Below are positions 20,313 to 31,324 of a DNA stretch of 64,000 nucleotides, in pieces. The notes beneath the pieces are model-generated. The model was not told the origin of the DNA, did not search any database, and saw only the letters and a program-made list of their open reading frames with translations. Both the position numbers and the translations under genes were made by a program. Where the stretch lies: NCBI RefSeq assembly GCF_018336975.1, contig NZ_CP025572.1, forward strand, positions 4,138,600 through 4,202,599. The letters run 5' to 3'. Every line of letters begins with the position of its first letter. The stretch's first letter is position 1. Source of the DNA: Marinomonas sp. CT5 (lineage in GTDB: Bacteria; Pseudomonadota; Gammaproteobacteria; Pseudomonadales; Marinomonadaceae).

Positions 20313-21866
20313 TTAAAAGGTAAGTCGTTCTTCAAGCCAAGCGATAACTTGTTCTTTCGGTAGAGGGCGGCAGAAATAGTAACCTTGCACTCTATCAACA
20401 CCTAGCTCTCGAACCGCACTTAATTGATCTTCTCGCTCAACCCCTTCAGCCACCAACTCCATATTCAACTCTTTTGCTAGTTTTGTGACTGAGGTGAGTA
20501 TCTGCCGAGTAAACTGATCATCCCTCAAGCTAGCAATAAAAATTTGATCCAGCTTCAATGTGTCATATGGGAAACGACGAAGGAAGTCTAACCCCGCATA
20601 ACCAGTACCAAAATCATCAACCGACAACCCAATTCCCAAACTTTTAATGTGTTCAAAGCGACTCACCATTAAAGGCAGTTCAACAGAATCTAGCACACTC
20701 GTTTCTGTCACTTCGAGGTTAAGTCGACCTTTTAACTCAGGATACTCATCTAAAATACAAGATAAGTGCGGCGCAAAACATTCTTTCAGCAGACTATGCC
20801 TATCCACATTCACGGAAATTTTAATATCCCTGAGTTGTTCTGGATACTCTCGGTAAAAATCCCCAACTTTGCGAATCACCATCCACGTCAGCTCATCAAT
20901 CAAGCCAAGACGGTCTGCCATATCCACAATGACCAGTGGCGACACCTGTCCATGGCGAAATGATCGCCACCGGATGAGCGCTTCCATTTCATGAGCGCCA
21001 CCCTCTTTTAATGAAACAATGGGCTGGAAATGTACATCCATAGCATTATTCTTAATTGCTCGTTTAATGCAGTGTCGTAAAGAACGTCGGTAATAAATCA
21101 GTACTAAATGACTAATATAAAAGACAACAAACAAGAATACCCAACTCACTAAAATAAAAGGCAAAAGTGACCATAGGTGACGCCAATACAAACTAGAAGG
21201 TAGGAAGACAACCAACGTCATTGCCCAATGACTTAAAGTCTCTTGGTGTTTAGCAAGTACTTTGGAATCGATGCCATCTCTATTGGAAGAAAATATTTTC
21301 TTTCCAATCGTCAACTGATAAAAATAATCAGGCAATAGAACTTGATCGACACTCACTGCGATACTTTCCGGTGGTGCGAGTCCATTCACGCCAAGACCAT
21401 CAGGCCGTTGATAAAAGGCAAAAAAGGTCGATTCCCCTAGTGTATTAGAACTCACTAAAGATACCGTCTTTCGGTCCACACTGTCTTTAATTCGACCGAC
21501 TATCGAATCATATATCTTGATATTAGCGGGACCTAGGCTCGAACAATAAACAATAAAATCAGAATTGAATAAACCAATTTCTTTCAAGGTTGGGGAGTAA
21601 AAAGTAACGCGTCGTAAACGCTTTAAATCAGGCTTTTCACAAGACAAACTGCTTTCATCTACAACCTGTTTTAATTCAGTAAAAATCCCATCCATTTGCT
21701 TAGACAAAGCCTGTTTCGCAGCCACAGTACGATTATCTAAATCCTGCAATAAAGAGAAATATAAGCAGATAGCAAAAATAGTGAGGATAACAAACAACGA
21801 AAGGAGGCTATAAAAAAAGATCACTCTTTTTCTCGAAGGAACTATTTCAGTGATATTTTTAAACAC
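20313..21866 (-). CDS. CSS-motif EAL cyclic-di-GMP phosphodiesterase
   Basis: Membrane phosphodiesterase of 517 aa. TM1 is at about 14-38. The periplasmic sensor (39-228) contains the CSS motif (108-110) and an upstream partner C76, as in the E. coli class whose periplasmic cysteines are controlled by DsbA/DsbB redox state and which is activated by proteolysis when reduced. TM2 is at about 230-257. The EAL domain (about 275-517) keeps EALIRW (295-300), LEVTETS, VDDFGTGYAG, LKLDQ, EGVERE and QGYYF, so it should be active. The GTG start is well supported by AAGGAGGT 8 nt upstream. It is monocistronic; the next operon upstream ends in a terminator. Confidence 0.93.
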   Translation of the reverse strand: MFKNITEIVPSRKRVIFFYSLLSLFVILTIFAICLYFSLLQDLDNRTVAAKQALSKQMDGIFTELKQVVDESSLSCEKPDLKRLRRVTFYSPTLKEIGLFNSDFIVYCSSLGPANIKIYDSIVGRIKDSVDRKTVSLVSSNTLGESTFFAFYQRPDGLGVNGLAPPESIAVSVDQVLLPDYFYQLTIGKKIFSSNRDGIDSKVLAKHQETLSHWAMTLVVFLPSSLYWRHLWSLLPFILVSWVFLFVVFYISHLVLIYYRRSLRHCIKRAIKNNAMDVHFQPIVSLKEGGAHEMEALIRWRSFRHGQVSPLVIVDMADRLGLIDELTWMVIRKVGDFYREYPEQLRDIKISVNVDRHSLLKECFAPHLSCILDEYPELKGRLNLEVTETSVLDSVELPLMVSRFEHIKSLGIGLSVDDFGTGYAGLDFLRRFPYDTLKLDQIFIASLRDDQFTRQILTSVTKLAKELNMELVAEGVEREDQLSAVRELGVDRVQGYYFCRPLPKEQVIAWLEERLTF

Positions 21867-21971
21867 TAAGTCTACCTCCTTATGTGTTTATTCTCAGTTC
21901 TAAAAAGCACTTTGTGCAAAAATATCGAATACTATATGTTGATAATTACATAGATATTCAAATGTACCAAT

Positions 21972-22001
21972 AAAAAAGACCGCCAAAAGGCAGTCTTTTT
22001 T
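21972..22001 (-). terminator. Terminator of the Cfa operon
   Basis: AAAAAAGACCGCC and GGCAGTCTTTTTT form a stem with one internal mismatch and an AAAA loop. On the minus strand it ends in six T. It lies about 115 bp beyond the stop of the DUF3833 gene, the last gene of the operon. Confidence 0.75.
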
Positions 22002-22115
22002 AAATAATAGAAAAGAAATCGCGTTAACCTTATCCTATATCAAGCAAAGTAATAATGTACCTTTAACACTATCTTTTCCTATCCAAATAGTCAGGATAAT
22101 GGCTACTTTATCCTA

Positions 22116-22667
22116 TTACTCAAGTGTTTTTTTAATCACAATGGACAAGTAACCCACTTCAAAACCAAATTTCGTCATGATGGATTCGTTCATCACAATC
22201 CCCTCATCAACCATATACATTCGATCATCTACATTAACTTCAATCAAATCACCATCATAGGGAACCTGTAAGACATACTTCATAAACAAGGCATTGCCCG
22301 ATGTTTTCACCACACCTTCTCCAATCACATCATTGGCTGTTGCTGTATACTGACCATTAGCGTCAGGCGTCATCACCCAAGTGCGTTTTTGGACCTCACC
22401 GTCGTCAAATAAAAACTCTTCTTCAAGAGTACCAACCCCATTCTCCCAACTACCTTCAAGGGTGGCGTTGAAATAGCGAATCACTTCACCACTGCGATTT
22501 TTCAAAATACCATGAGCGGTTAAAGGGCCCGAAAAAAACGTTTGTAACTCGAACTTAGGCTCATTTTTAGAATACAAAGAGACTTCTGGTGTAGAACAAG
22601 CCGTCATGAAAAACAAACATAAAATAATAGAAACCTTCGCTAAAATCGCTCGCCGTAAATGATTCAT
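22116..22667 (-). CDS. DUF3833 family lipoprotein
   Basis: Exported lipoprotein of 183 aa and unknown function. The N terminus MNHLRRAILAKVSIILCLFF is a lipoprotein signal with the lipobox MTAC, giving lipid-modified C24. The remainder is a beta-rich DUF3833 domain (about 35-180) with FFSGPLTAHGILKNRSG and LEGSW patterns. The ATG has AAGGAG 6 nt upstream; a GTG two codons earlier is inferior. It is the last gene of the putative sigma-driven operon with cfa, where DUF3833 genes are a usual companion. A role in lipid trafficking or modification is only an inference from that context. Confidence 0.85.
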   Translation of the reverse strand: MNHLRRAILAKVSIILCLFFMTACSTPEVSLYSKNEPKFELQTFFSGPLTAHGILKNRSGEVIRYFNATLEGSWENGVGTLEEEFLFDDGEVQKRTWVMTPDANGQYTATANDVIGEGVVKTSGNALFMKYVLQVPYDGDLIEVNVDDRMYMVDEGIVMNESIMTKFGFEVGYLSIVIKKTLE

Positions 22668-22697
22668 ACCCACTCCTTTAAGAACCTATAAAAACAA

Positions 22698-23426
22698 CTA
22701 CATATAATGATATTGAATGTCGACAGTTTGATATTTGCCTTGCTCATCACAAATGTTTGCTCGCCCTGTAAATCTCAATAACCTTTTATCTGCTGGATCG
22801 TATGCTACGACAATGGGATCTAGCGCCAACCGGACAAACCAAGAAACAGGCTTAAGGGCAAAACACATCGCTCCCTCTTTTGTGCCATCAACACATGTTA
22901 TTTGACTGACACGAAAGCTATACGTTGTTTGCCTGCTTGGCACTAAGTACTCAATGTCCATCTCCTTCCCAGTGATCAAGGTATTCCAGTACTGTTTTAC
23001 AAAGGCATCAAAACCCGCATCGACGACCATACCAGCCACTAATTTAACGGAATCTTTTTCAACCTTAGCCGTATTGTTTTCTTGATAACTTATTTTTAGT
23101 AAGTCGCCTGACTGGGTGACACTTATTTTTTCGCCATTGCGCTCATTCACTTGTGAGAAACTGGGTGTGATTCGAGACTTAGAAAAATCTAAGGTTTTAT
23201 TCGCAAAAATCTGCCCATCTGGCTCTGAGTATTCAACTTTATAAATATCTTCACTCACTTTTTGATGAGTTTCTCGGTATAACAGAGTGCCCGTTTCCAC
23301 ACTATACGCACTGCCAACTAGCTTAGAAAAACCCTCTTCTGCCATACTGGAAGAACTAAATAAAAATGCCAGCACAGCCACCATAAAATATCGCTTTGGA
23401 AATAGTTCATGAACCATACCTTTCAT
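22698..23426 (-). CDS. Exported protein of unknown function in the Cfa operon
   Basis: I do not recognise a named family. The protein (242 aa) begins with a Sec signal peptide: basic MKGMVHELFPKRYF, a hydrophobic MVAVLAFLF core and probable cleavage after SMA. The mature part is beta-rich and alternates polar and hydrophobic residues, with two cysteines near ITCVDG and GAMCFAL and one near ANICDEQ. The proportions resemble DUF3108-type periplasmic proteins, but I cannot confirm that. The ATG shares one base with the upstream stop (TGATG), so translation is coupled to the DUF2878 gene. It lies between DUF2878 and DUF3833 genes in the operon. Confidence 0.75.
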   Translation of the reverse strand: MKGMVHELFPKRYFMVAVLAFLFSSSSMAEEGFSKLVGSAYSVETGTLLYRETHQKVSEDIYKVEYSEPDGQIFANKTLDFSKSRITPSFSQVNERNGEKISVTQSGDLLKISYQENNTAKVEKDSVKLVAGMVVDAGFDAFVKQYWNTLITGKEMDIEYLVPSRQTTYSFRVSQITCVDGTKEGAMCFALKPVSWFVRLALDPIVVAYDPADKRLLRFTGRANICDEQGKYQTVDIQYHYM

Positions 23427-23950
23427 CACCTTCTGTCTCCTTCTGTTGGAAATAATGCCCATTTTTCACAAAGCCATACGCCTAACGGCAATACCATTGA
23501 CCAAACAAGAGCAACAATAAACAGGCTCAACATAATGGGAGTCGCTAGTGTAATACCGGCCAAATTTGCTCCAGCGAAGTAACTCATGGTAGGCCCTATT
23601 GCACCGAGTAAAGCCGCAAATACATAACGTGAGCGTAGAAAAGTTAAACTGTGGGCAAACAAAGTCCCCACACTTACCCAAAGACAAAGTAGCCAAACAG
23701 GTGGCAAATTTAACTCACCTATTTCACTTTGATTGGCGGTAAAAATACCAAATTGAAACATGGCGCCATCAATCACAACGCCAAGCAGAAAAAAAAACAG
23801 CAGTAATCGCCACTCACGCCGTGAAGCCATAAAGTAGCGATCATGCAAAAACAAATACAAAGCCGTGGCGACCAGCGCCCATACGCTGCCAGCCAACAAA
23901 CAGACAAACCATACGGTTTGAAACAAAATGGCATTCATCAAAGATTTCAT
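23426..23950 (-). CDS. DUF2878 family membrane protein
   Basis: Inner-membrane protein of 174 aa with about five hydrophobic segments, including ILFQTVWFVCLLAGSVWALV, LLLFFFLLGVVIDGAMF, VWLLCLWVSVGTLFAHSL, a Gly-rich GAIGPTMSYFAGANLAG and a last one near 140-163. Family DUF2878, function unknown, regularly found beside cfa and DUF1365 genes. The open frame extends 72 codons upstream inside cfa, but the true start is the ATG 14 bp after the cfa stop with GAGGG upstream. The C-terminal codons overlap the next start by one base. Confidence 0.82.
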   Translation of the reverse strand: MKSLMNAILFQTVWFVCLLAGSVWALVATALYLFLHDRYFMASRREWRLLLFFFLLGVVIDGAMFQFGIFTANQSEIGELNLPPVWLLCLWVSVGTLFAHSLTFLRSRYVFAALLGAIGPTMSYFAGANLAGITLATPIMLSLFIVALVWSMVLPLGVWLCEKWALFPTEGDRR

Positions 23951-23963
23951 GCCATTCACCCTC

Positions 23964-25232
23964 TTACCCTTGCACGATAGATAAACGGTGATCAGGCTTG
24001 GCAAAAATAAATTGTCCAGTACTGATCGCACGTTCTTTGAAGCCACCTTCACAATAAGCGAGGTAAAAGTCCCACATGCGACAAAACACATCATCAAAGC
24101 CCATCTCGGCGACTTCTCGGCGAGCCGCATGAAAACGTGTACGCCAGTCCGCAAGTGTCTTGGCATAATGCTCTGTGATGTCTTCTAAACCGACGATTTG
24201 CATGTCCGTCTTAGACGCAATTTTATGGGCAATAACCTGATTGGAAGGAAGGCAACCGCCAGGGAAAATATAGCGCTGAATAAAGTCTACCGAGCTGCGC
24301 GCATAATCGTATCGCTGATCCGCAATGGTAATCGCTTGAATCACCATTACCCCATGAGGCTTCAAAAGCGCACTGCACTTGGAAAAATAACTGTCGTAAT
24401 ATTCGTGACCGACCGCTTCGATCATCTCAATCGATACTAGCTTGTCATATTGACCTTGTAAGTCTCGATAATCTTCCAGCAATAGAGTGATTCTATCTTG
24501 TAAACCTTCCGCCTCTACTCGCGCTTTAGCAAACTCGTATTGCTCTTTCGAGATGGTGGTCGTCGTTACTTGGCAACCGTAATGCTTCGCGGCATGAATC
24601 GCCATACCACCCCAGCCCGTGCCAATTTCTAGCAAGTGATCGTCTTTATTGAGTTGTAGCTTTTGACAGATGCGATCTAACTTATTCACCGATGCTTCTT
24701 CTAAAGACGCATCAACCTGAGGATAAACGGCCGACGAATACATCATGGTCGGATCCAAAAACAAGGAGAAGAAATCGTTCCCCAAATCATAATGGGCTGA
24801 GATGTTATCTTTAGAACCTTTCTTGGTATTGGCATTTAACTTGTGAATAATCTTGGCACCAATACGGCTCCAGATTGGGCGCTTCGCGTCCATTTTGTTG
24901 ATCAAGTTCAAGTTAGCGACCATCAAACGAATCACCGCCACCACGTCGGAAGACGACCACCAGCCCTTCATGTAGGCTTCGCCAGCACCGATACTGCTGT
25001 TTTGAAAAACATCACGATAAGCATGAATATCATGAACATGAATATGAGCAATGTATTGAGTGTCTTCTTTCGCTTCACCAAAAGAATAAACTTCACCATT
25101 TTCTTCTAGAGTTAGGTGACCCACTTCCAATTTTCCTAACATGGTAAACACCATTTTACGGGCAAGATTATCAAACCATGTTGTTGTACGATTTTTTCTC
25201 ACTTTTTGGTTATCCATACTGACGGAGTTCAT
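23964..25232 (-). CDS. cfa: Cyclopropane-fatty-acyl-phospholipid synthase family methyltransferase
   Basis: Cfa-type enzymes transfer a methylene or methyl group from S-adenosylmethionine to the double bond of membrane phospholipid acyl chains. The 422-aa protein shows an N-terminal lipid-binding domain (about 25-130), AHYDLGNDFF (146-155), the SAM motif LEIGTGWGG (201-209), SIEMIEAVGHEYY, and a C-terminal AYCEGGFKER with C394 at the position of the conserved active-site cysteine. It is the fifth gene of the operon divergent from an ECF sigma/ChrR pair. In Rhodobacter the same stress sigma controls Cfa-like enzymes, including a methylase of furan fatty acid synthesis (UfaM), so this could be either activity. 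The start has GGAGAG upstream. Confidence 0.9.
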   Translation of the reverse strand: MNSVSMDNQKVRKNRTTTWFDNLARKMVFTMLGKLEVGHLTLEENGEVYSFGEAKEDTQYIAHIHVHDIHAYRDVFQNSSIGAGEAYMKGWWSSSDVVAVIRLMVANLNLINKMDAKRPIWSRIGAKIIHKLNANTKKGSKDNISAHYDLGNDFFSLFLDPTMMYSSAVYPQVDASLEEASVNKLDRICQKLQLNKDDHLLEIGTGWGGMAIHAAKHYGCQVTTTTISKEQYEFAKARVEAEGLQDRITLLLEDYRDLQGQYDKLVSIEMIEAVGHEYYDSYFSKCSALLKPHGVMVIQAITIADQRYDYARSSVDFIQRYIFPGGCLPSNQVIAHKIASKTDMQIVGLEDITEHYAKTLADWRTRFHAARREVAEMGFDDVFCRMWDFYLAYCEGGFKERAISTGQFIFAKPDHRLSIVQG

Positions 25233-25269
25233 ACTGGTTACTCTCCTAATGCGTTTTATACTTAACTTA

Positions 25270-26055
25270 TTATTTAGATTTAGTAGTAACTGACGATGAA
25301 TTCGGATGCGAATAAAAAGGTACCTTTTTCATCCAAAGCTTAAGTGCTTGCCAATAAATCCCAAACGCCACTTTCATTGTCATCACAGGGTAAGTAAACA
25401 ACACCCTAGCCATTGAGCTTGACGTTAGAGCCATGCGATTTAGCGATAAAGTGGCATCAAATACACATTGTTCACCTTTTAATTCTTTGTTCTGCATGTG
25501 TACCGCTAACTTTTGGTGCGGAACATTGCTACGCCAATCATAAAAGTGTTCCATTGGATGAAAAGGCGATACATGCATCTCTTTGTTAAATTTAATACGC
25601 TGCGTTTGATTACTTGGATCACACTTTAAAACATAAGGAATTTTTTCGTTCCAAGGCGTGTTGGTCACTTCGAGCAACATGGCTTGCAGTTGCTCCTCTT
25701 CATCAAAGCAGTAATAGATAGTGATAGGATTAATAATGAAGCCGAAATAACGGCAATTGGTCAGCATACGAACGGGCCCTGAAAGATTCAGCCCCAGACG
25801 CGTATTCACTTCCGACAACACCGCTTGCTTGATAGGCAGGGCATTTTCCCCGAAATAATCCTTTCGCGCGAAACGAGCAAGAGACCAGCTCTTCATGGAC
25901 CACCAAGAACTCATGGCCAACACCTCGTCCAACTCGTCTAGGTCGAAGTACATCATAAAAACACGATAGCGGAATGCATGGGAGCGCGGCGTAAAACGAC
26001 GATGCCGCACTATTCCCTGATAAATCGCACTGTGTTTAGGAACAAAATCTACCAT
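25270..26055 (-). CDS. DUF1365 family protein
   Basis: Protein of 261 aa in DUF1365, of unknown function, nearly always coded next to an NAD(P)-binding flavoprotein and a Cfa-type methyltransferase. Typical features are an N-terminal [24 protein letters not shown] (10-33), [10 protein letters not shown] (108-117), [10 protein letters not shown] (128-137) and a C-terminal hydrophobic stretch with [24 protein letters not shown]. The repeated aromatic pattern suggests membrane association. The ATG overlaps the end of the flavoprotein gene by 7 bp, so translation is coupled. Role in lipid modification is inferred from this constant neighbourhood. Confidence 0.88.
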
Positions 26056-27299
26056 GAAACACCAAGTCCATTAGCAACACGCACACCACTCCAACAGCCG
26101 TCTTCATGGAAACCATTTCGCCAGTAAGCACCACAGAACCAAGTCTTATTGACGCCATTAATCTCAGCCCATCTATCCTGAGCCTTAATACCCTCTAACG
26201 TAAAAGTAGGATGGGAATACTGAAAACGTCCAACAATTTTGTCTTCGGCGATCATGTCCGTTTGATTCAAGGTCACCACATAGGTTGTATCACTGGAAAA
26301 GTGCTGCAGAATATTCATGTTATAGCTAAGCGTCGCAGGCTTGGTGCTGTCCGTACCTAAATGGTAATTCCAGCTCGACCATGCCAGCTTTTTCTTAGGC
26401 AAAAGTCGTGTATCTGTGTGAAGTACGACGTCATTGTTGCGATACGGAATCGCCCCCAAGATAGCCTGCTCTTGTGCAGAAGGATCAGCCAACAAAGCCA
26501 AGGCTTCATCACTGTGACAGGCAAAGACAACTTGATCAAAAGTCTGTGTAGAGCCATCGCCAAAATGAATAATTACCTCATTTTCAGCGCGTTGGACCTT
26601 GGCAATATCAGCACCCAATTGAATACGATCTTCAAACTTAGCCACCAAAGGCTGTAAGTAGGCCGATGATCCCCCTTCGATGACACGCCATTGTGGGCGA
26701 TCATTCACGCTTAACAATCCGTGGTTTTTAAAGAAACGAACAAAAAACACCAAGGGAAAGTCCATCATTTCATCTAAGGTAGATGACCAAATTGCACTGC
26801 CCATGGGGATCAAATAATGACTCGCAAAACGGCTGCCGTAACCCTTTTCTTTTAGATATTCCCCCAGCGTCACGCCTTCTTTTAGTTGGCCGCCTTCAAG
26901 GTCTTGGATGGCCTCTTTGTTGAATCGTAAAATGTCTTTCAACATACCAATAAAAGAAAAATTTAGTAGGTTCCGGCGCTGAGCAAACAAGGTATTAAGG
27001 TTATTACCACCGTACTCCAACCCGGTACGCTGACAGCTGACACTAAAACTCATTTCTGTGGCTTTCGATGTCACGCCCAGCTCATCCATTAAGCGAATAA
27101 AGTTTGGGTAGGTCCAATCATTGAAGACAATAAAGCCGGTATCAATTGCCCGAGTATTTCCGCCTTCTTCTACTTGCACGGTCGCTGTATGACCACCAAT
27201 GCGCTCAGCCGACTCAAATACGGAGACATCATGTTGTTGCTGTAGAAGATACGCGCTGGTTAATCCGGAAATCCCTGATCCAATAATGGCAATTTTCAC
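26049..27299 (-). CDS. NAD(P)/FAD-binding amine-oxidase-like flavoprotein
   Basis: Flavoprotein of 416 aa. The Rossmann dinucleotide motif GSGISGL (7-13) is followed by an acidic residue at the end of strand 2 ([10 protein letters not shown], 28-37) and [12 protein letters not shown] (50-61). A C-terminal FAD contact is near [14 protein letters not shown] (about 391-404). Members that accompany DUF1365 and Cfa genes include UfaD of the Rhodobacter furan-fatty-acid pathway, a fatty-acyl desaturase; a similar role here is an inference. The GTG start has AGGGG upstream; an ATG a few bases earlier is out of frame. It is the third gene of the putative sigma-dependent operon. Confidence 0.87.
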
Positions 27300-27365
27300 T
27301 CATTGTCCCCTTAAAACATGTTTATTATGACCAGCCAAGCTGATGTTTATATTTCATTCTTCTCT

Positions 27366-28115
27366 TTATGTCTTTGGCGCTAACTTGGACAACCATAATT
27401 TCGGCAAGTGTCGACCGATCCACAAAGCCGCGCTTAAACGTTTTGGAAAAGCGTATTCGTAAGGACGAGATTTTAAAGCGTCATACATACGTTTTGCCGC
27501 CTCTTCCGCTGACATTAAAAAAGGCATAGAAAAATCGTTCTTTTGCGTCAAAGGCGTATCCACAAAACCCGGCAACAAACAGCTCACATCAATATTGAAT
27601 TGCTTCACGTCTACACGCAAAGAAGACAAAAAATACCGAATGGCGGCTTTACTGGCACCATAGGCTTCATTTTGAGGAAAAGCCGCTTGCACAGCTTGTG
27701 AACTGACACCGACCAAATGAGGCTGTGACGCTTTTTTTAGCAAGGGCAAACACACATCGACACAGTTCACCAAACCAAAAAAGTTGATCGACATAACGCG
27801 GTCCATCATTTTCCAATCAGGCTCGTTAATATCCAAATATTCACAAGTGCCCGCGTTTAAAATGGCACAATCTAAATGAGCAGAATGCGAACTAAGAACC
27901 TCCTGAACAGAGACTATTTGGCTGTCATCCGTCATATCAAAAGGCACAAACGTTAAATGATCAGAAGAGCCTAACAAAGGCTCAAGCTCTCCAGGTTTTC
28001 TCGCACTTGCCAGTACTCGCCAACCATCGTTCAAATAGCGCTTAGTCAAGGCAAGCCCTATGCCAGAGGTTGCGCCTGTTATCCAAACAACCTTCTTATC
28101 TTTTGCCTCTTCCAT
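27366..28115 (-). CDS. Short-chain dehydrogenase/reductase
   Basis: Classical SDR of 249 aa: cofactor motif TGATSGIG (13-20), NAG (87-89), the serine at 138-139 and the catalytic YGASK (152-156). The residue after strand 2 is in ARKP, favouring NADP(H) (inference). The C terminus is basic and ends near LPKLWLSKLAPKT. AAGGAGG stands 5 nt before the ATG. It is the second gene of the operon, 10 bp after the NTF2-like gene. The substrate is unknown; the surrounding genes suggest a lipid or lipid-derived aldehyde or ketone. Confidence 0.88.
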   Translation of the reverse strand: MEEAKDKKVVWITGATSGIGLALTKRYLNDGWRVLASARKPGELEPLLGSSDHLTFVPFDMTDDSQIVSVQEVLSSHSAHLDCAILNAGTCEYLDINEPDWKMMDRVMSINFFGLVNCVDVCLPLLKKASQPHLVGVSSQAVQAAFPQNEAYGASKAAIRYFLSSLRVDVKQFNIDVSCLLPGFVDTPLTQKNDFSMPFLMSAEEAAKRMYDALKSRPYEYAFPKRLSAALWIGRHLPKLWLSKLAPKT

Positions 28116-28125
28116 TACAGCCTCC

Positions 28126-28575
28126 TTATTTCGCTAGACGTTTCTTTAAACCTTTCACCGCTATCCCCAATAAAGGGACATGCTCATAGAGTAATTGGCC
28201 CAAGTCATATACATCTTCATGAAAATAGATAAGGTCGTTAAATTGCACCTGACTGATACCGCGCACGGTAATGGTCTTATTACCTAATTTGGGATGTTTA
28301 AAATGCATGTTCCATTTTATGTATGCGGTATCTTCCGAAACGACTTGATCTAGGTATTCAAAACGCCCTGTTTGAACGTTTTCGCACATCTCAGACAAAT
28401 AGGCGTGCAAATTTTCCTTACCACGCAATTCATGGACAGGGTCTTTGAAGAGCACATCTTCGGTATATATTTCATCTATTTTGTCGAGCTTAGGGTGCTT
28501 TACATCAAGATAAAACGCTTTAAAACGCTCTATTAGCAAAGAATTGGGATCCATCTGAGAGTCCGCCATGTCCAT
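28126..28575 (-). CDS. NTF2-like (SnoaL-type) protein
   Basis: Small soluble protein of 149 aa with a nuclear-transport-factor-2-like cone fold: N-terminal helix FKAFYLDVKHPKLDKIDEIY, strand EDVLFKDPVHELRGKENLHAYL (about 43-64), then the beta-sheet with AYIKWNMHFKHP and ITVRGISQVQF. The D-H pair in DPVHE (48-52) is placed like catalytic residues of related isomerases, but activity cannot be assumed. The ATG was chosen with AAGG 6 nt upstream. It is the first gene of the operon, 65 bp downstream of the predicted sigma promoter, and is a frequent member of ECF/ChrR-linked Cfa clusters. Confidence 0.85.
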   Translation of the reverse strand: MDMADSQMDPNSLLIERFKAFYLDVKHPKLDKIDEIYTEDVLFKDPVHELRGKENLHAYLSEMCENVQTGRFEYLDQVVSEDTAYIKWNMHFKHPKLGNKTITVRGISQVQFNDLIYFHEDVYDLGQLLYEHVPLLGIAVKGLKKRLAK

Positions 28576-28639
28576 CACTTACCTTAGTCATCTTGATATG
28601 AATAATTAATCAAAGCCAATTCGCTTCACTTCCCTCAAT

Positions 28640-28667
28640 TAAACGCACACAACACAATAATGGATCA
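28640..28667 (-). promoter_or_regulatory. ECF sigma promoter driving the Cfa operon
   Basis: On the minus strand, -35 TGATCC (28662-28667), a 16-bp spacer and -10 CGTTTA (28640-28645). This is the form expected for RpoE/ChrR-type (ECF11) sigma factors, and the same -35 and spacer occur on the other strand before the sigma gene. Transcription would begin near 28633, about 58 nt before the first start codon. Confidence 0.75.
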
Positions 28668-28746
28668 CTCTTTTTTTTAAAGCTTGACGCAAGCACAATA
28701 TTTTTTTGCCCTCCTAATTATTTTTTACTGTTTAAAATAAAGAATG

Positions 28747-28774
28747 TGATCCATCCTTCTAATCACCGCGTATA
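28747..28774 (+). promoter_or_regulatory. ECF sigma promoter, autoregulation of the sigma gene
   Basis: -35 TGATCC (28747-28752), 16-bp spacer, -10 CGTATA (28769-28774). It is 39 bp upstream of the sigma-factor ATG. It matches the divergent element in all six -35 bases, spacer length and the CGT of the -10 box. Confidence 0.78.
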
Positions 28775-28813
28775 GTTGATAATCACATGCAAGCTTTCCT
28801 TTTGGAGCAATGA

Positions 28814-29389
28814 ATGGAACGCGCAATACAAACAGAACCAGATGAAAAACGCTTAGCAGACATTTTTGCCATTGCGGAAAAAAGAGACCAAGAGGCGCTT
28901 GTGCGCTTGTTCGATCACTATGTTCCAAAGGTAAGAGCTTTCTGTCTTGCGGCACAGCCTGGCGCCAATTTAATGGCCGATGACATTGCTCAAGAAGTCA
29001 TGATTCGTATTTGGAATAAAGCGCACACTTATAAACCCGAGTCGGCGTCTCTCAATACTTGGGTTTTTACCCTAGCCAGAAACGCACGTATTGATTATTT
29101 GCGTAAGAACAGTCGCCATCAATCAGACATTGACCCAGAGTACCTCTGGCAAAATGTGGTTGATGAAAATGCCGACCCATTTAAAGATGCGCAACAAAAA
29201 AGAGATCAAGAACGGATTCAGCAAGGCTTAGATAAATTGCCTGCGGATCAAAAACAGGTTTTGGCCAAAGTCTATTTAGAAGGCAAAACCCACAAAGAAG
29301 CAGCGGAGGAGCTATCGCTCCCTCTCGGAACCATTAAGTCCCGAGTCCGTCTTGCTTTGCACAAACTCACTATTTACGTTAAGAGGTAG
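28814..29389 (+). CDS. rpoE: ECF-family RNA polymerase sigma factor (RpoE/ChrR type)
   Basis: Extracytoplasmic-function sigma factor of 191 aa. Region 2 (about 22-90) includes LVRLFDHYVPKVRAFC, ADDIAQEVMIRIWNKAH and TLARNARIDYLRK; region 4 (about 130-188) has LPADQKQVLAKVYLEGKTHKEAAEELSLPLGTIKSR. No extra domains. It is followed 5 bp later by a ChrR-type zinc anti-sigma, which identifies the ECF11-like group responding to singlet oxygen and related oxidants in Rhodobacter and to organic hydroperoxides in others. GGAG is 6 nt before the ATG. The symbol is by group; it is not the orthologue of the E. coli envelope-stress factor. Confidence 0.92.
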   Translation: MERAIQTEPDEKRLADIFAIAEKRDQEALVRLFDHYVPKVRAFCLAAQPGANLMADDIAQEVMIRIWNKAHTYKPESASLNTWVFTLARNARIDYLRKNSRHQSDIDPEYLWQNVVDENADPFKDAQQKRDQERIQQGLDKLPADQKQVLAKVYLEGKTHKEAAEELSLPLGTIKSRVRLALHKLTIYVKR

Positions 29390-29394
29390 TATCG

Positions 29395-30087
29395 ATGATT
29401 CACTACCATCCATCGATTGAAATCCTGACCGACTACGCGGCCGGTTCGTTGCCATTAGCGCACTCTTTATGTGTTTCTACACATCTAGAGCGTTGCCATG
29501 AATGCCAACAGCAAATTCGCAAACTGGAAATGCTTGGTTCACACCTGTTCGAGCAGACGAAAACAGACAGTCGTCAGCTAAGCGATTTAAAAGACAGCTT
29601 TTTCCAAAAGCTAAATACCCAAATCGAGCAGGAACCCAAGAGTCAGGAGAAAGAAGAAGAGTCTGCCACTTTGGAGTGGGATAATTACACCGTTCCAAGA
29701 AGTCTTCGTCAGTTTATTAAAAAGAACTACGACGATTTAAATTGGATGCGCCTCTCTCCCTCATTTAAAATCGCCACCTTGTACAACGAAGAAGGTGGTG
29801 CACAAATTGCTCTAACCAGAGTAAAAGCAGGCGCTCATATGCCAACTCACACTCATACTGGGGATGAAATTACCCTTGTATTAGAAGGGGCTTTTTCTGA
29901 CGAAAGTGGTGTTTATCGTCAAGGGGATTTTATCAACCGCGATGCCAGTCACAAACACAAACCGATTGTGACCAAAGACGCGGAATGCATCTGTTTAACC
30001 GTGCTAGATGCACCGATTGAATTTACCGGATGGTTGACACGTTTATTGAATCCTATCCTTCGCCGATACCACCCTTATTCGGGGTAA
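29395..30087 (+). CDS. chrR: ChrR-family zinc anti-sigma factor with cupin domain
   Basis: Anti-sigma factor of 230 aa. The N-terminal zinc-binding anti-sigma domain has H5, H30, C34 and C37 (HLERCHEC), in the same arrangement as ChrR of Rhodobacter. The C-terminal cupin domain (about 100-215) has H152, H154 and E158 in PTHTHTGDE, with a later H186 or H188, the set needed for the signal-dependent release of sigma. No membrane segment, so it acts in the cytoplasm. Coupled to the sigma gene by a 5-bp gap with GAGG upstream of its ATG. The linker at about 72-92 is unusually rich in E, K, Q and S. Confidence 0.93.
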   Translation: MIHYHPSIEILTDYAAGSLPLAHSLCVSTHLERCHECQQQIRKLEMLGSHLFEQTKTDSRQLSDLKDSFFQKLNTQIEQEPKSQEKEEESATLEWDNYTVPRSLRQFIKKNYDDLNWMRLSPSFKIATLYNEEGGAQIALTRVKAGAHMPTHTHTGDEITLVLEGAFSDESGVYRQGDFINRDASHKHKPIVTKDAECICLTVLDAPIEFTGWLTRLLNPILRRYHPYSG

Positions 30088-30177
30088 TGGCAGCAGTCTG
30101 TGCCTATCTTCTGAATCGAAGATGAGCACACGATTGCAGACGTTAGCCAACAACAAGCAAATTTTGTGAAAATCTGG

Positions 30178-30210
30178 TATAGTCCTTGTTCAAACTACAA
30201 ACAAGGACTA
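30178..30210 (+). promoter_or_regulatory. Promoter and perfect inverted repeat upstream of the small protein gene
   Basis: TGGTATAGT is an extended -10 box (TATAGT at 30178-30183). Overlapping it is a perfect 11-bp inverted repeat, TAGTCCTTGTT (30180-30190) and AACAAGGACTA (30200-30210), with a 9-nt spacer. The right arm contains the AAGGA used by the next gene. As DNA it could be an operator over the -10 box; in a transcript started further upstream it would be a hairpin hiding the Shine-Dalgarno. Confidence 0.5.
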
Positions 30211-30216
30211 TTTATC

Positions 30217-30399
30217 ATGGCAACTAAGAAGAAACAGCCGGCTGCTACGGAAACTTCGGAATCCATTGAAAAGCAGATGCAAGAGTTTCTAGCTCGCGGT
30301 GGACACATAGATAAAATCGATTCAGGAGTTAGTGGACAATCTCAGCTAACAGGATCACGTCACATTTCCCTTGGAAATAGCAAAACGAAAGCCCAATAG
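30217..30399 (+). CDS. Small hypothetical protein
   Basis: A 60-aa hydrophilic protein. The N terminus is basic and low-complexity (MATKKKQPAATETSES), followed by one helix (IEKQMQEFLARGG) and the segment GGHIDKIDSGVSGQ. I have the impression that the FLxxGGxIxxIxxGxSG pattern recurs in small proteins of marine gammaproteobacteria, but no function is known to me. An ATG 17 codons upstream is in frame but would span the -10 box and hairpin; AAGGA lies 8 nt before the chosen ATG. No membrane segment. It converges on the RpiR gene. Confidence 0.65.
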   Translation: MATKKKQPAATETSESIEKQMQEFLARGGHIDKIDSGVSGQSQLTGSRHISLGNSKTKAQ

Positions 30400-30440
30400 G
30401 TCTTTCCAAATTGTCTGACAGAAGACTAGAAACGCGTTAG

Positions 30441-30478
30441 AAAATGAATTCTCAAAGTACACAAGCATAGAGAATTCA
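30441..30478. terminator. Hairpin between converging small gene and RpiR gene
   Basis: Perfect 9-bp arms, TGAATTCTC (30445-30453) and GAGAATTCA (30470-30478), 16-nt loop. On the minus strand the stem is followed by TTTTCT, so it fits a terminator for the RpiR gene whose stop is 3 bp away. Confidence 0.45.
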
Positions 30479-30481
30479 AGC

Positions 30482-31324
30482 TTATCTAGCGCTCTTTTCT
30501 AAAGCATGAGCCAAACCAATCGACAAAGATTGTGCTAAGCAAAGCGACGAAGACAAAGAGCGAAAAGATTGTATTTCGGCTTCCTTAACCACAAAGCAGA
30601 CCGAAGCAATTGAAGCTAGCGGACTTATTTGATTATCTGTAATCACAATAAGTGGCACATTTTTTTCTGCGGCCGCTTTCGCGACAGCTTGTGTTTCTTG
30701 TGCGTAAGGATGAAAACTTACGGCGATCAATGCATCGTTTTCACTTAAAGCACTCGCTTGTTCCTTGTACATCCCTCCAACACCATCAATCAAATACGCT
30801 TTTCGATCAATATGACGTAACGCATAAGCAAAATAACTCGCTACGACAAATGCCCGCCTAACACCAACAATATGAGCGGCATGTGCTTGAGACAAGATTT
30901 GTATTGCCCTATCTAAGTCTTCGGCCGATGTGGTTTCCCCCAAATGTCCGAGCGCAACAGCATTAGCATGTGTAAAACGAGTTAACAGTTGAGAAGGCGA
31001 TTGTTCATTGCTTTCATCACCAAATGCGTCTCTTGCCATGCGAATCCGATCTTGATAACTCGGTGCTTCTTCCATCAAATTTTGTTGGAACAATTTCTGC
31101 ATTTCGCTAAAACCACTAAAGCCAAACGCATTTGCAAAACGCACCCAAGTAGAAGGATGTACACCAGCATCTTTTGACAAAACGGCTACAGTCCCAAACG
31201 CCACTTCACTAGGCGCGTCTAATACAAATTCAGCCACTTGCCGAAGCCGTTTACTTAACTTCGAATAATCCTGTTTAATTGTTTCTTTTAAATCAGTTAA
31301 TGATTCTGGAGCGACGTCTGCCAT
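30482..31324 (-). CDS. MurR/RpiR-family transcriptional regulator, probable inositol regulator
   Basis: A 280-aa regulator with the N-terminal RpiR HTH (about 1-80: DYSKLSKRLRQVAEFVLDAP and VAVLSKDAGVHPSTWVRFANAFGF) and a SIS sugar-phosphate-binding domain (about 125-255, with HIVGVRRAFVVASYFAYAL and ALIAVSFHPYAQET). It stands 750 bp from the iol operon in the opposite direction, the usual place of the RpiR-type iol repressor in proteobacteria, whose ligand is an inositol-derived phosphate. The ATG with GAGA upstream was chosen over an in-frame start 15 codons earlier, which lacks family similarity. Its target is likely the palindrome before iolC. Confidence 0.88.
   Translation of the reverse strand: MADVAPESLTDLKETIKQDYSKLSKRLRQVAEFVLDAPSEVAFGTVAVLSKDAGVHPSTWVRFANAFGFSGFSEMQKLFQQNLMEEAPSYQDRIRMARDAFGDESNEQSPSQLLTRFTHANAVALGHLGETTSAEDLDRAIQILSQAHAAHIVGVRRAFVVASYFAYALRHIDRKAYLIDGVGGMYKEQASALSENDALIAVSFHPYAQETQAVAKAAAEKNVPLIVITDNQISPLASIASVCFVVKEAEIQSFRSLSSSLCLAQSLSIGLAHALEKSAR

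Follow-up and report, generated by a model that had tools for sequence, protein, structure and literature searches.

Does the ECF sigma factor encoded at this Marinomonas locus control both its own operon and a divergent lipid-modification operon through a pair of matched, facing promoters, as the original prediction held, and are these the only places at the locus where it would start transcription? The window (the whole 64-kb stretch of DNA analysed) lies in a chromosome of 4.76 Mb (G000) and holds the following features; no RNA family was found in its 64 kb at gathering score.

28747..28774, + strand: rightward ECF11-type promoter, TGATCC-N16-CGTATA, 5' of the sigma gene (motif match and conservation)
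28640..28667, - strand: leftward ECF11-type promoter, TGATCC-N16-CGTTTA, 5' of the lipid operon (motif match and conservation)
25594..25621, - strand: candidate intragenic ECF11-type promoter, TGATCC-N16-CGTATT, within the DUF1365 gene (synonymous constraint)
28814..29389, + strand: ECF sigma factor, RpoE of the RpoE-ChrR type (Sigma70_r2/r4; match to RpoE 2q1z_A)
29395..30087, + strand: ChrR anti-sigma factor (TIGR02451; 2z2s_B; zinc ligands)
28126..28578, - strand: operon gene 1, SnoaL/NTF2-like (PF12680)
27366..28115, - strand: operon gene 2, short-chain dehydrogenase, SDR (PF00106)
26049..27299, - strand: operon gene 3, FAD oxidoreductase in the position of UfaD (PF01593)
25270..26055, - strand: operon gene 4, DUF1365, UfaO-like, in which the intragenic site lies (PF07103)
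23964..25232, - strand: operon gene 5, Cfa/UfaM-like methyltransferase (PF02353)
23426..24166, - strand: operon gene 6, DUF2878 (PF11086, the match beginning at residue 76; the true start is probably near 23950)
22698..23462, - strand: operon gene 7, without a Pfam match, its position kept in relatives
22116..22673, - strand: operon gene 8, DUF3833, lipoprotein-like (PF12915)

The facing pair and the family to which it belongs

By sequence, the sigma factor, ChrR and their predicted targets belong to the ECF11 RpoE-ChrR system. Searched against solved structures, the sigma factor finds Rhodobacter sphaeroides RpoE first (2q1z_A, 122 bits; next chain, 52 bits). ChrR scores 201 bits with TIGR02451 (cut-off 124.5), matches 2z2s_B (E 2.5e-28), contains a Cupin_7 domain and retains all eight zinc ligands (H6, H31, C35, C38, H141, H143, E147 and H177) named in PMC6852236, a paper cited here, like the other papers below, from excerpts. 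A TGATCC/CGTA-type promoter 5' of rpoE, the mark of self-regulation, is present by sequence in 42/42 loci, and promoters for the lipid core regulon are likewise present by sequence, the front -10 box reading CGTT and the intragenic site being perfect. The domain families of the CMAS methyltransferase, the FAD oxidoreductase and DUF1365 are adjacent in the operon, at the level of Pfam. Photolyases are among the targets common in print and are not a family requirement; the genome has two photolyase genes, and neither is supported as a target of this sigma factor, TGATC-N16-18-CGT being absent from their two 3.5-kb loci.

Both strands of the gap carry TGATCC, a 16-bp spacer and a -10 box that begins with CGT, at 28640-28667 (-) and 28747-28774 (+), and the rightward motif lies 39 bp from the ATG of the sigma gene, all as first described. 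The leftward motif, said to stand 65 bp before gene 1, is 61 bp from the GTG at 28578 and 64 bp from the ATG that follows; similarly, the gap is 235 bp long, the 238 bp given earlier being reached only by counting from the downstream ATG. The facing -35 boxes are 79 bp apart, each with an A-rich stretch upstream. TGATCC-N15-17-CGTNNA matches exactly twice in the 64 kb, against a mean of 0.24 in whole-window shuffles (1/100 reached two), and the rightward and leftward motifs occurred together in 0/300 shuffles at every one of the 40 loci compared below, window included, in line with the earlier argument that chance would seldom produce such a pair.

The family sample comprised 48 genomes, all of one genus, the named near relatives being Marinomonas and one Maribrevibacterium. 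We compared the window with 41 of 55 loci (L064-L104; 38 of Marinomonas type and three from other gammaproteobacteria, L101-L103), the 14 loci L105-L118 being dropped for their remote sigma factors. The operon is divergent from the sigma gene and adjoins it in 39 of the 41 relatives and is not beside it in two (L095 and L101). The eight-gene operon of the original prediction is real, the order of all eight genes being kept in 37/41 relatives and seven of the eight in L102 and L103. Promoter pairs were counted in 40 loci, that is, the window and the 39 relatives in which gene 1 is beside sigma (all but L095 and L101). TGATCY-N15-17-CGT is found rightward in 40/40 and leftward in 36/40; for exact TGATCC-N16-CGT the counts are 35/40 rightward, 23/40 leftward and 21/40 for both. 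In the four leftward misses the -35 box differs by a single base, reading TGGTCC (L087, L089) or TAATCC (L102, L103). Across the loci the intergenic spacer sequences have diverged and the promoter boxes are kept.

The rightward site has a spacer of 16 bp in 37 of 42 loci and of 17 bp in five, its -35 box is TGATCC in 41 and TGATCT in one, and the fourth position of its -10 box is A in 42/42. Leftward, 27 loci have a -10 box that starts with CGTT, 11 have CGTA and four gave no match (L081 is counted by its site with a 16-bp spacer). The T- and A-bearing tips separate on a five-protein tree, on which the grouping of the CGTT tips on one branch has weak support (0.37) and labels can shift with re-rooting; the operon's front promoter may thus have departed from CGTA in one group and stayed so, a claim that we limit to the T and A tips falling apart.

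Beyond the genus, 8 of 229 genomes of the class pass the ChrR cut-off, the Marinomonas genome among them. The other seven hold eight loci above it, five of which (L184, L185, L187, L189 and L190) have a facing TGATCC-type pair; L186, L188 and L191 are without a facing sigma/lipid-gene pair. The gene that faces sigma in L185 and L187 is a more distant Cfa relative. The -35 boxes are 4 bp apart in these two loci and 1 bp apart in nine loci of Marinomonas type (L088, L091, L093, L094, L096-L100), so that there would scarcely be room for two polymerases at the same time and the promoters would presumably compete. A search for plasmid copies of the sigma/operon intergenic region gave no match.

How much of this is new? 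In Shewanella oneidensis, RpoE2 induces chrR and SO_3386, and TGATCC-N16-CGTATT, with a mapped start site, precedes rpoE2; self-regulation and a phrB-cfa operon (SO_3386-SO_3374), of which SO_3386 is the first gene, complete the likeness to the wiring predicted here (PMC4336711). The operon promoter there is placed 5' of SO_3386, however, which the gene numbers put at a distance from rpoE2 (SO_1986), and the excerpted text of PMC4336711 makes no mention of an intragenic site. The Pseudomonas syringae factor PSPTO_1043 has the ChIP-seq consensus TGATCC-n16-CGTA, induces phrB, which heads a phrB-to-cfa locus, and is suggested to regulate itself, but sigma and operon are at separate loci (PMC5507510). 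The founder of ECF11, R. sphaeroides sigmaE-ChrR, has a zinc ChrR in which all eight of these ligands occur, and a furan fatty acid core regulon (PMC6852236, PMC7380195), the ECF11 core regulon as reviewed comprising about eight genes (PMC6852236). In the synthesis of furan fatty acids, oxygen is inserted by UfaO, a DUF1365 protein; UfaD corresponds to RSP1091, and the methyltransferase UfaM depends on SAM (PMC7380195). Judged by numbering, RSP1091-1087 adjoins RSP_1092-1093 and is probably divergent from it as in the window, whereas ufaM (RSP2144) is elsewhere in the genome (PMC6852236, PMC7380195). Thus, the twin facing sites are an instance of the known ECF11 RpoE-ChrR regulon, largely in print already. 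The original prediction that the sigma factor would activate itself and the lipid operon is strongly supported by the comparison, and also by the Shewanella and P. syringae precedents; since the same promoter and targets have been published, it is sound and mostly known.

A third site within the DUF1365 gene

The original prediction missed a third, perfect TGATCC-N16-CGTA. This site, TGATCCAAGTAATCAAACGCAGCGTATT, is on the - strand within the DUF1365 coding sequence (25596-25621 in the CGTA form), 362 bp upstream of cfa. The window contains one other perfect TGATCC-N16-CGTA match, and the 4.76-Mb genome five in all. The site is present in 37/38 Marinomonas-type loci (window counted) and in both examined loci of another family, f44 (G230 and G089); the one exception among the 38 is L092, with GAA for GAT, and L102 and L103, outside the 38, read TGACCC. 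The site appears to be an intragenic ECF11 promoter held by selection.

Within the motif, the protein sequence leaves only the wobble bases of Cys145, Asp146 and Arg153 free to change. In a parsimony count over 38 rows (L095 and L101, with the operon not beside sigma, and the outgroup L102/L103 left out), these codons have undergone no synonymous change: wherever the amino acid is retained, Cys145 is TGT in 36/36, Asp146 is GAT in 37/37 and Arg153 is CGT in 38/38. Conserved columns of the eight genes average 7.7 changes for Cys (n=21), 8.0 for Asp (n=73) and 13.8 for Arg (n=72), and background codon usage is 0.585 for TGT, 0.626 for GAT and 0.385 for CGT. Just one other Cys, Asp or Arg column has no changes, at the final Arg codon of sigma, and by sequence this codon falls in the chrR ribosome-binding site. 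Altogether 7/1236 columns in the eight genes are change-free: the three codons of the motif, the two that end sigma, both within the chrR ribosome-binding site, and two singles (SDR Phe199 TTT, 27519-27521, -; Cfa Glu85 GAA, 24978-24980, -; both over 38 rows). Since these two are frozen without explanation, single columns may be change-free by chance. Taken as a window, codons 145-153 are the lowest nine in the eight genes (observed/expected 0.28, among windows with at least four conserved codons), and the next lowest value, 0.31, belongs to the end of sigma, where the ribosome-binding site of chrR lies. The wobble positions of the codons neighbouring the motif vary, as do the bases between -35 and -10.

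The simplest alternative is that only the two intergenic promoters are real and that the third match is a protein motif, Asp-Pro-x5-Arg, whose codons happen to spell TGATCC-N16-CGTA. In its favour, Cys-Asp-Pro-x5-Gln-Arg is kept in close DUF1365 homologues, in 103/121 rows made up of the query and the best 120 of 7579 matches; the 18 rows without it include the variants CEP, CNP, CDE and no Gln before Arg. M. posidonica (P0029) retains the peptide, whereas the proteins of M. mediterranea and M. balearica (P0060, P0066) have CEP in place of CDP, so that any intragenic promoter would be predicted to be weaker in these two. Residues 145-150 form a turn between predicted strands 137-144 and 151-157 (model pLDDT 88.3). 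As the peptide is conserved as protein, its residues may be kept for the enzyme, and only the wobble evidence is independent of this. Protein conservation leaves wobble positions free, however, yet three are frozen in 36-38 rows while their neighbours vary; moreover, Cys-Asp-Pro-x5-Gln-Arg is absent from 27 more distant class homologues examined (116 genomes matched). The site too is missing from these 27, including a homologue from G059, a genome positive for ChrR, which counts against the intragenic promoter.

A search of open-access papers found no intragenic ECF11 promoter by title or abstract, though one may already have been described. The nearest hints in print are two: an R. sphaeroides construct retains a 'potential promoter of RSP1089' within ufaO (PMC6852236, PMC7380195), and in P. 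syringae 54 of 87 motif-bearing ChIP peaks fall in coding regions, for which the authors urge caution (PMC5507510). The record suggests that intragenic promoters under synonymous constraint are the new part, the twin promoters being known.

A comparable site within phrB

Operons of the Vibrionaceae, Aeromonas and Pseudoalteromonas have the order ybgA-(merR)-phrB-NTF2-SDR-FAD-DUF1365-CFA-DUF2878-x-DUF3833, in which the genes after phrB are ordered as in the window, by annotation (Salinivibrio, Aeromonas) or tblastn. They too have an embedded TGATCC-N16-CGTA just 5' of the first lipid gene (10 loci). The embedded site is in phrB, however, and sigma-chrR, where found, is co-directional; two Salinivibrio loci differ in having neither peptide nor embedded site. 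In four Pseudoalteromonas loci (L266, L267, L268 and L276), chrR, DUF523/DUF1722 (ybgA), phrB and the lipid genes lie next to one another and point the same way.

The phrB site is perfect, occupies the last part of the gene before the NTF2/SnoaL gene and is encoded by F-D-P-x-G-x-F-I-R. It is found in 10/10 operon-linked photolyases with the peptide and in 0/4 unlinked ones with the same or a near peptide (Fisher 0.001, in a small table that ignores phylogeny), or in 10/10 against 0/3 (Fisher 0.0035) without the control from Shinella (L275), which has the variant FDPEGTYVR. L261, L262 and L264 count as linked by their lipid genes, no sigma gene having been found in the stretch examined; the table omits, for want of a peptide match, the operon-linked Salinivibrio L260 and L271, as well as L270, L272, L273 and the two Marinomonas photolyases. 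Codons were compared in nine of the ten loci (in L261 no single open frame above 300 residues held the peptide). Of 123 columns with identical residues four are codon-invariant, and three of these are the motif's Phe, Asp and Arg; pairs of phrB genes use different codons at 41-75% of shared residues. Aeromonas L264 keeps the same T-ending motif codons at 63% G+C. A further perfect motif lies within DUF1365 of L264 (6509-6536), at another position and in another frame, upstream of cfa. We read the phrB site as a probable second case of an intragenic ECF11 promoter.

Returning to the protein-motif alternative, Asp-Pro-x-Gly-x-Phe-Ile-Arg is shared by unlinked photolyases too, as would be expected of a motif kept for the protein, but the same freezing of codons recurs in phrB, even in L264 with its high G+C content. 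We regard an accidental spelling as unlikely. Less probable still is that the constrained DUF1365 segment serves another function, such as an RNA processing or pausing signal or the site of another regulator: synonymous constraint by itself does not name the reader of a site, but the bases that never change coincide exactly with the -35 and -10 boxes, spaced by 16 bp as for the sigma factor encoded at the same locus, and those between the boxes vary. That housekeeping sigma-70 promoters drive both operons, the ECF pair being accidental, is highly improbable, for the eleven sigma-70-like strings in 21800-30600 fall below the shuffle mean of 16.8 and avoid the gap between the operons, and the ECF pair is kept in 36/40 loci, with a like pair in 5/8 distant loci.

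The proposed circuit and its reach

We therefore favour, with a probability of roughly 0.83, an ECF11 RpoE-ChrR stress circuit in which the sigma factor would have three start places at the locus, one of them intragenic in DUF1365. The anti-sigma factor ChrR, which combines a zinc site with a cupin domain, would hold the sigma factor until the inhibition is lifted by an oxidative signal, in relatives either singlet oxygen or an organic peroxide. RNA polymerase with the freed sigma factor would presumably use all three sites, which sequence and comparison place at the locus together with their conservation and synonymous constraint: rightward for its own sigma-chrR operon, leftward from the front of the eight-gene lipid operon and, again leftward, from within gene 4, providing an extra transcript for cfa and the later genes. 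The lipid product would be of the furan or methyl fatty acid type. Counted against the circuit are the leftward -10 box, CGTT, unlike the published CGTA, and the lack of genome-wide enrichment of perfect sites (five in 4.76 Mb), a lack that also favours the protein-motif alternative. The gaps in the record of the intragenic site (L092, L102 and L103, the 18 rows without the peptide and the 27 more distant homologues) and the two unexplained frozen columns weigh against it as well.

A genome search for TGATCC-N16-CGT had been proposed as a way to recover the regulon. The pattern has 30 matches in the Marinomonas genome against 21 for the reversed control, and only 5/30 extend to CGTA; because of these figures, counts in a single genome do not part signal from chance, and we rejected definition of the regulon by this pattern alone. 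Across 12 genomes, TGATCC-N16-CGTAWA has 22 matches against 8 reversed, and across 47 genomes TGATCY-N16-CGTATA has 79 against 18. Some of the 79 could be placed, at sigma promoters, at DUF2805 genes and at the DUF1365 site of G023 (L090). Two more TGATCT-N16-CGTATA sites recur with similar spacers, one in G006:C23, G027:C17, G032:C4 and G035:C4, the other in G005:C4, G037:C31 and G040:C1:1430304.

The DUF2805 gene, outside the window at G000:C1:3823243-3823470 (-), has TGATCT-N16-CGTATA 33 bp upstream (3823504-3823531, -). Within the genus, where 36 genomes gave a DUF2805 match, 30 loci were examined and 14 have TGATCY-N16-CGTA upstream; the control gave 0/516 upstream regions of open reading frames with CGTA and 2/516 with CGTA or CGTT. 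DUF2805 is thus a further candidate target, with a site shared by only some of the genus; a role as ECF11 target beyond Marinomonas is not supported, the best upstream match in 12 other class genomes being 8/10 letters. The open-access papers found for DUF2805 are, by title and abstract, on other subjects. Two other sites were noted. A perfect TGATCC-N16-CGTA (L019, G000:C1:2350380-2350404, -) precedes a gene that by eye resembles an NAD-dependent epimerase and is a possible target. In a single genome (L120, G017), TGATCC-N16-CGTAAA stands 60 bp before the gene for a small, apparently secreted protein, perhaps of the fasciclin kind.

The two embedded sites invite a wider reading, which we consider reasonably probable: ECF11 regulons may use promoters inside enzyme genes, written as Asp-Pro-x5-Arg codons, that would have arisen separately in the DUF1365/ufaO-like genes of Marinomonas and a second family and in the phrB of Vibrio, Photobacterium, Aeromonas, Pseudoalteromonas and another genome. 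Selection on the promoter would freeze the codons and may shape the peptide, and the operon would be split into full-length and lipid-only or cfa-distal transcripts. If so, the P. syringae ECF11 ChIP peaks in coding regions may include working promoters, and lipid-remodelling genes could be expressed separately from the DNA-repair genes that share their operon. Conservation at the level of codons would also offer a cheap route to intragenic promoters in other regulons. A routine promoter pair would then lead to a testable rule, that extra sigma-specific promoters lie within coding sequence and are revealed by frozen synonymous codons.
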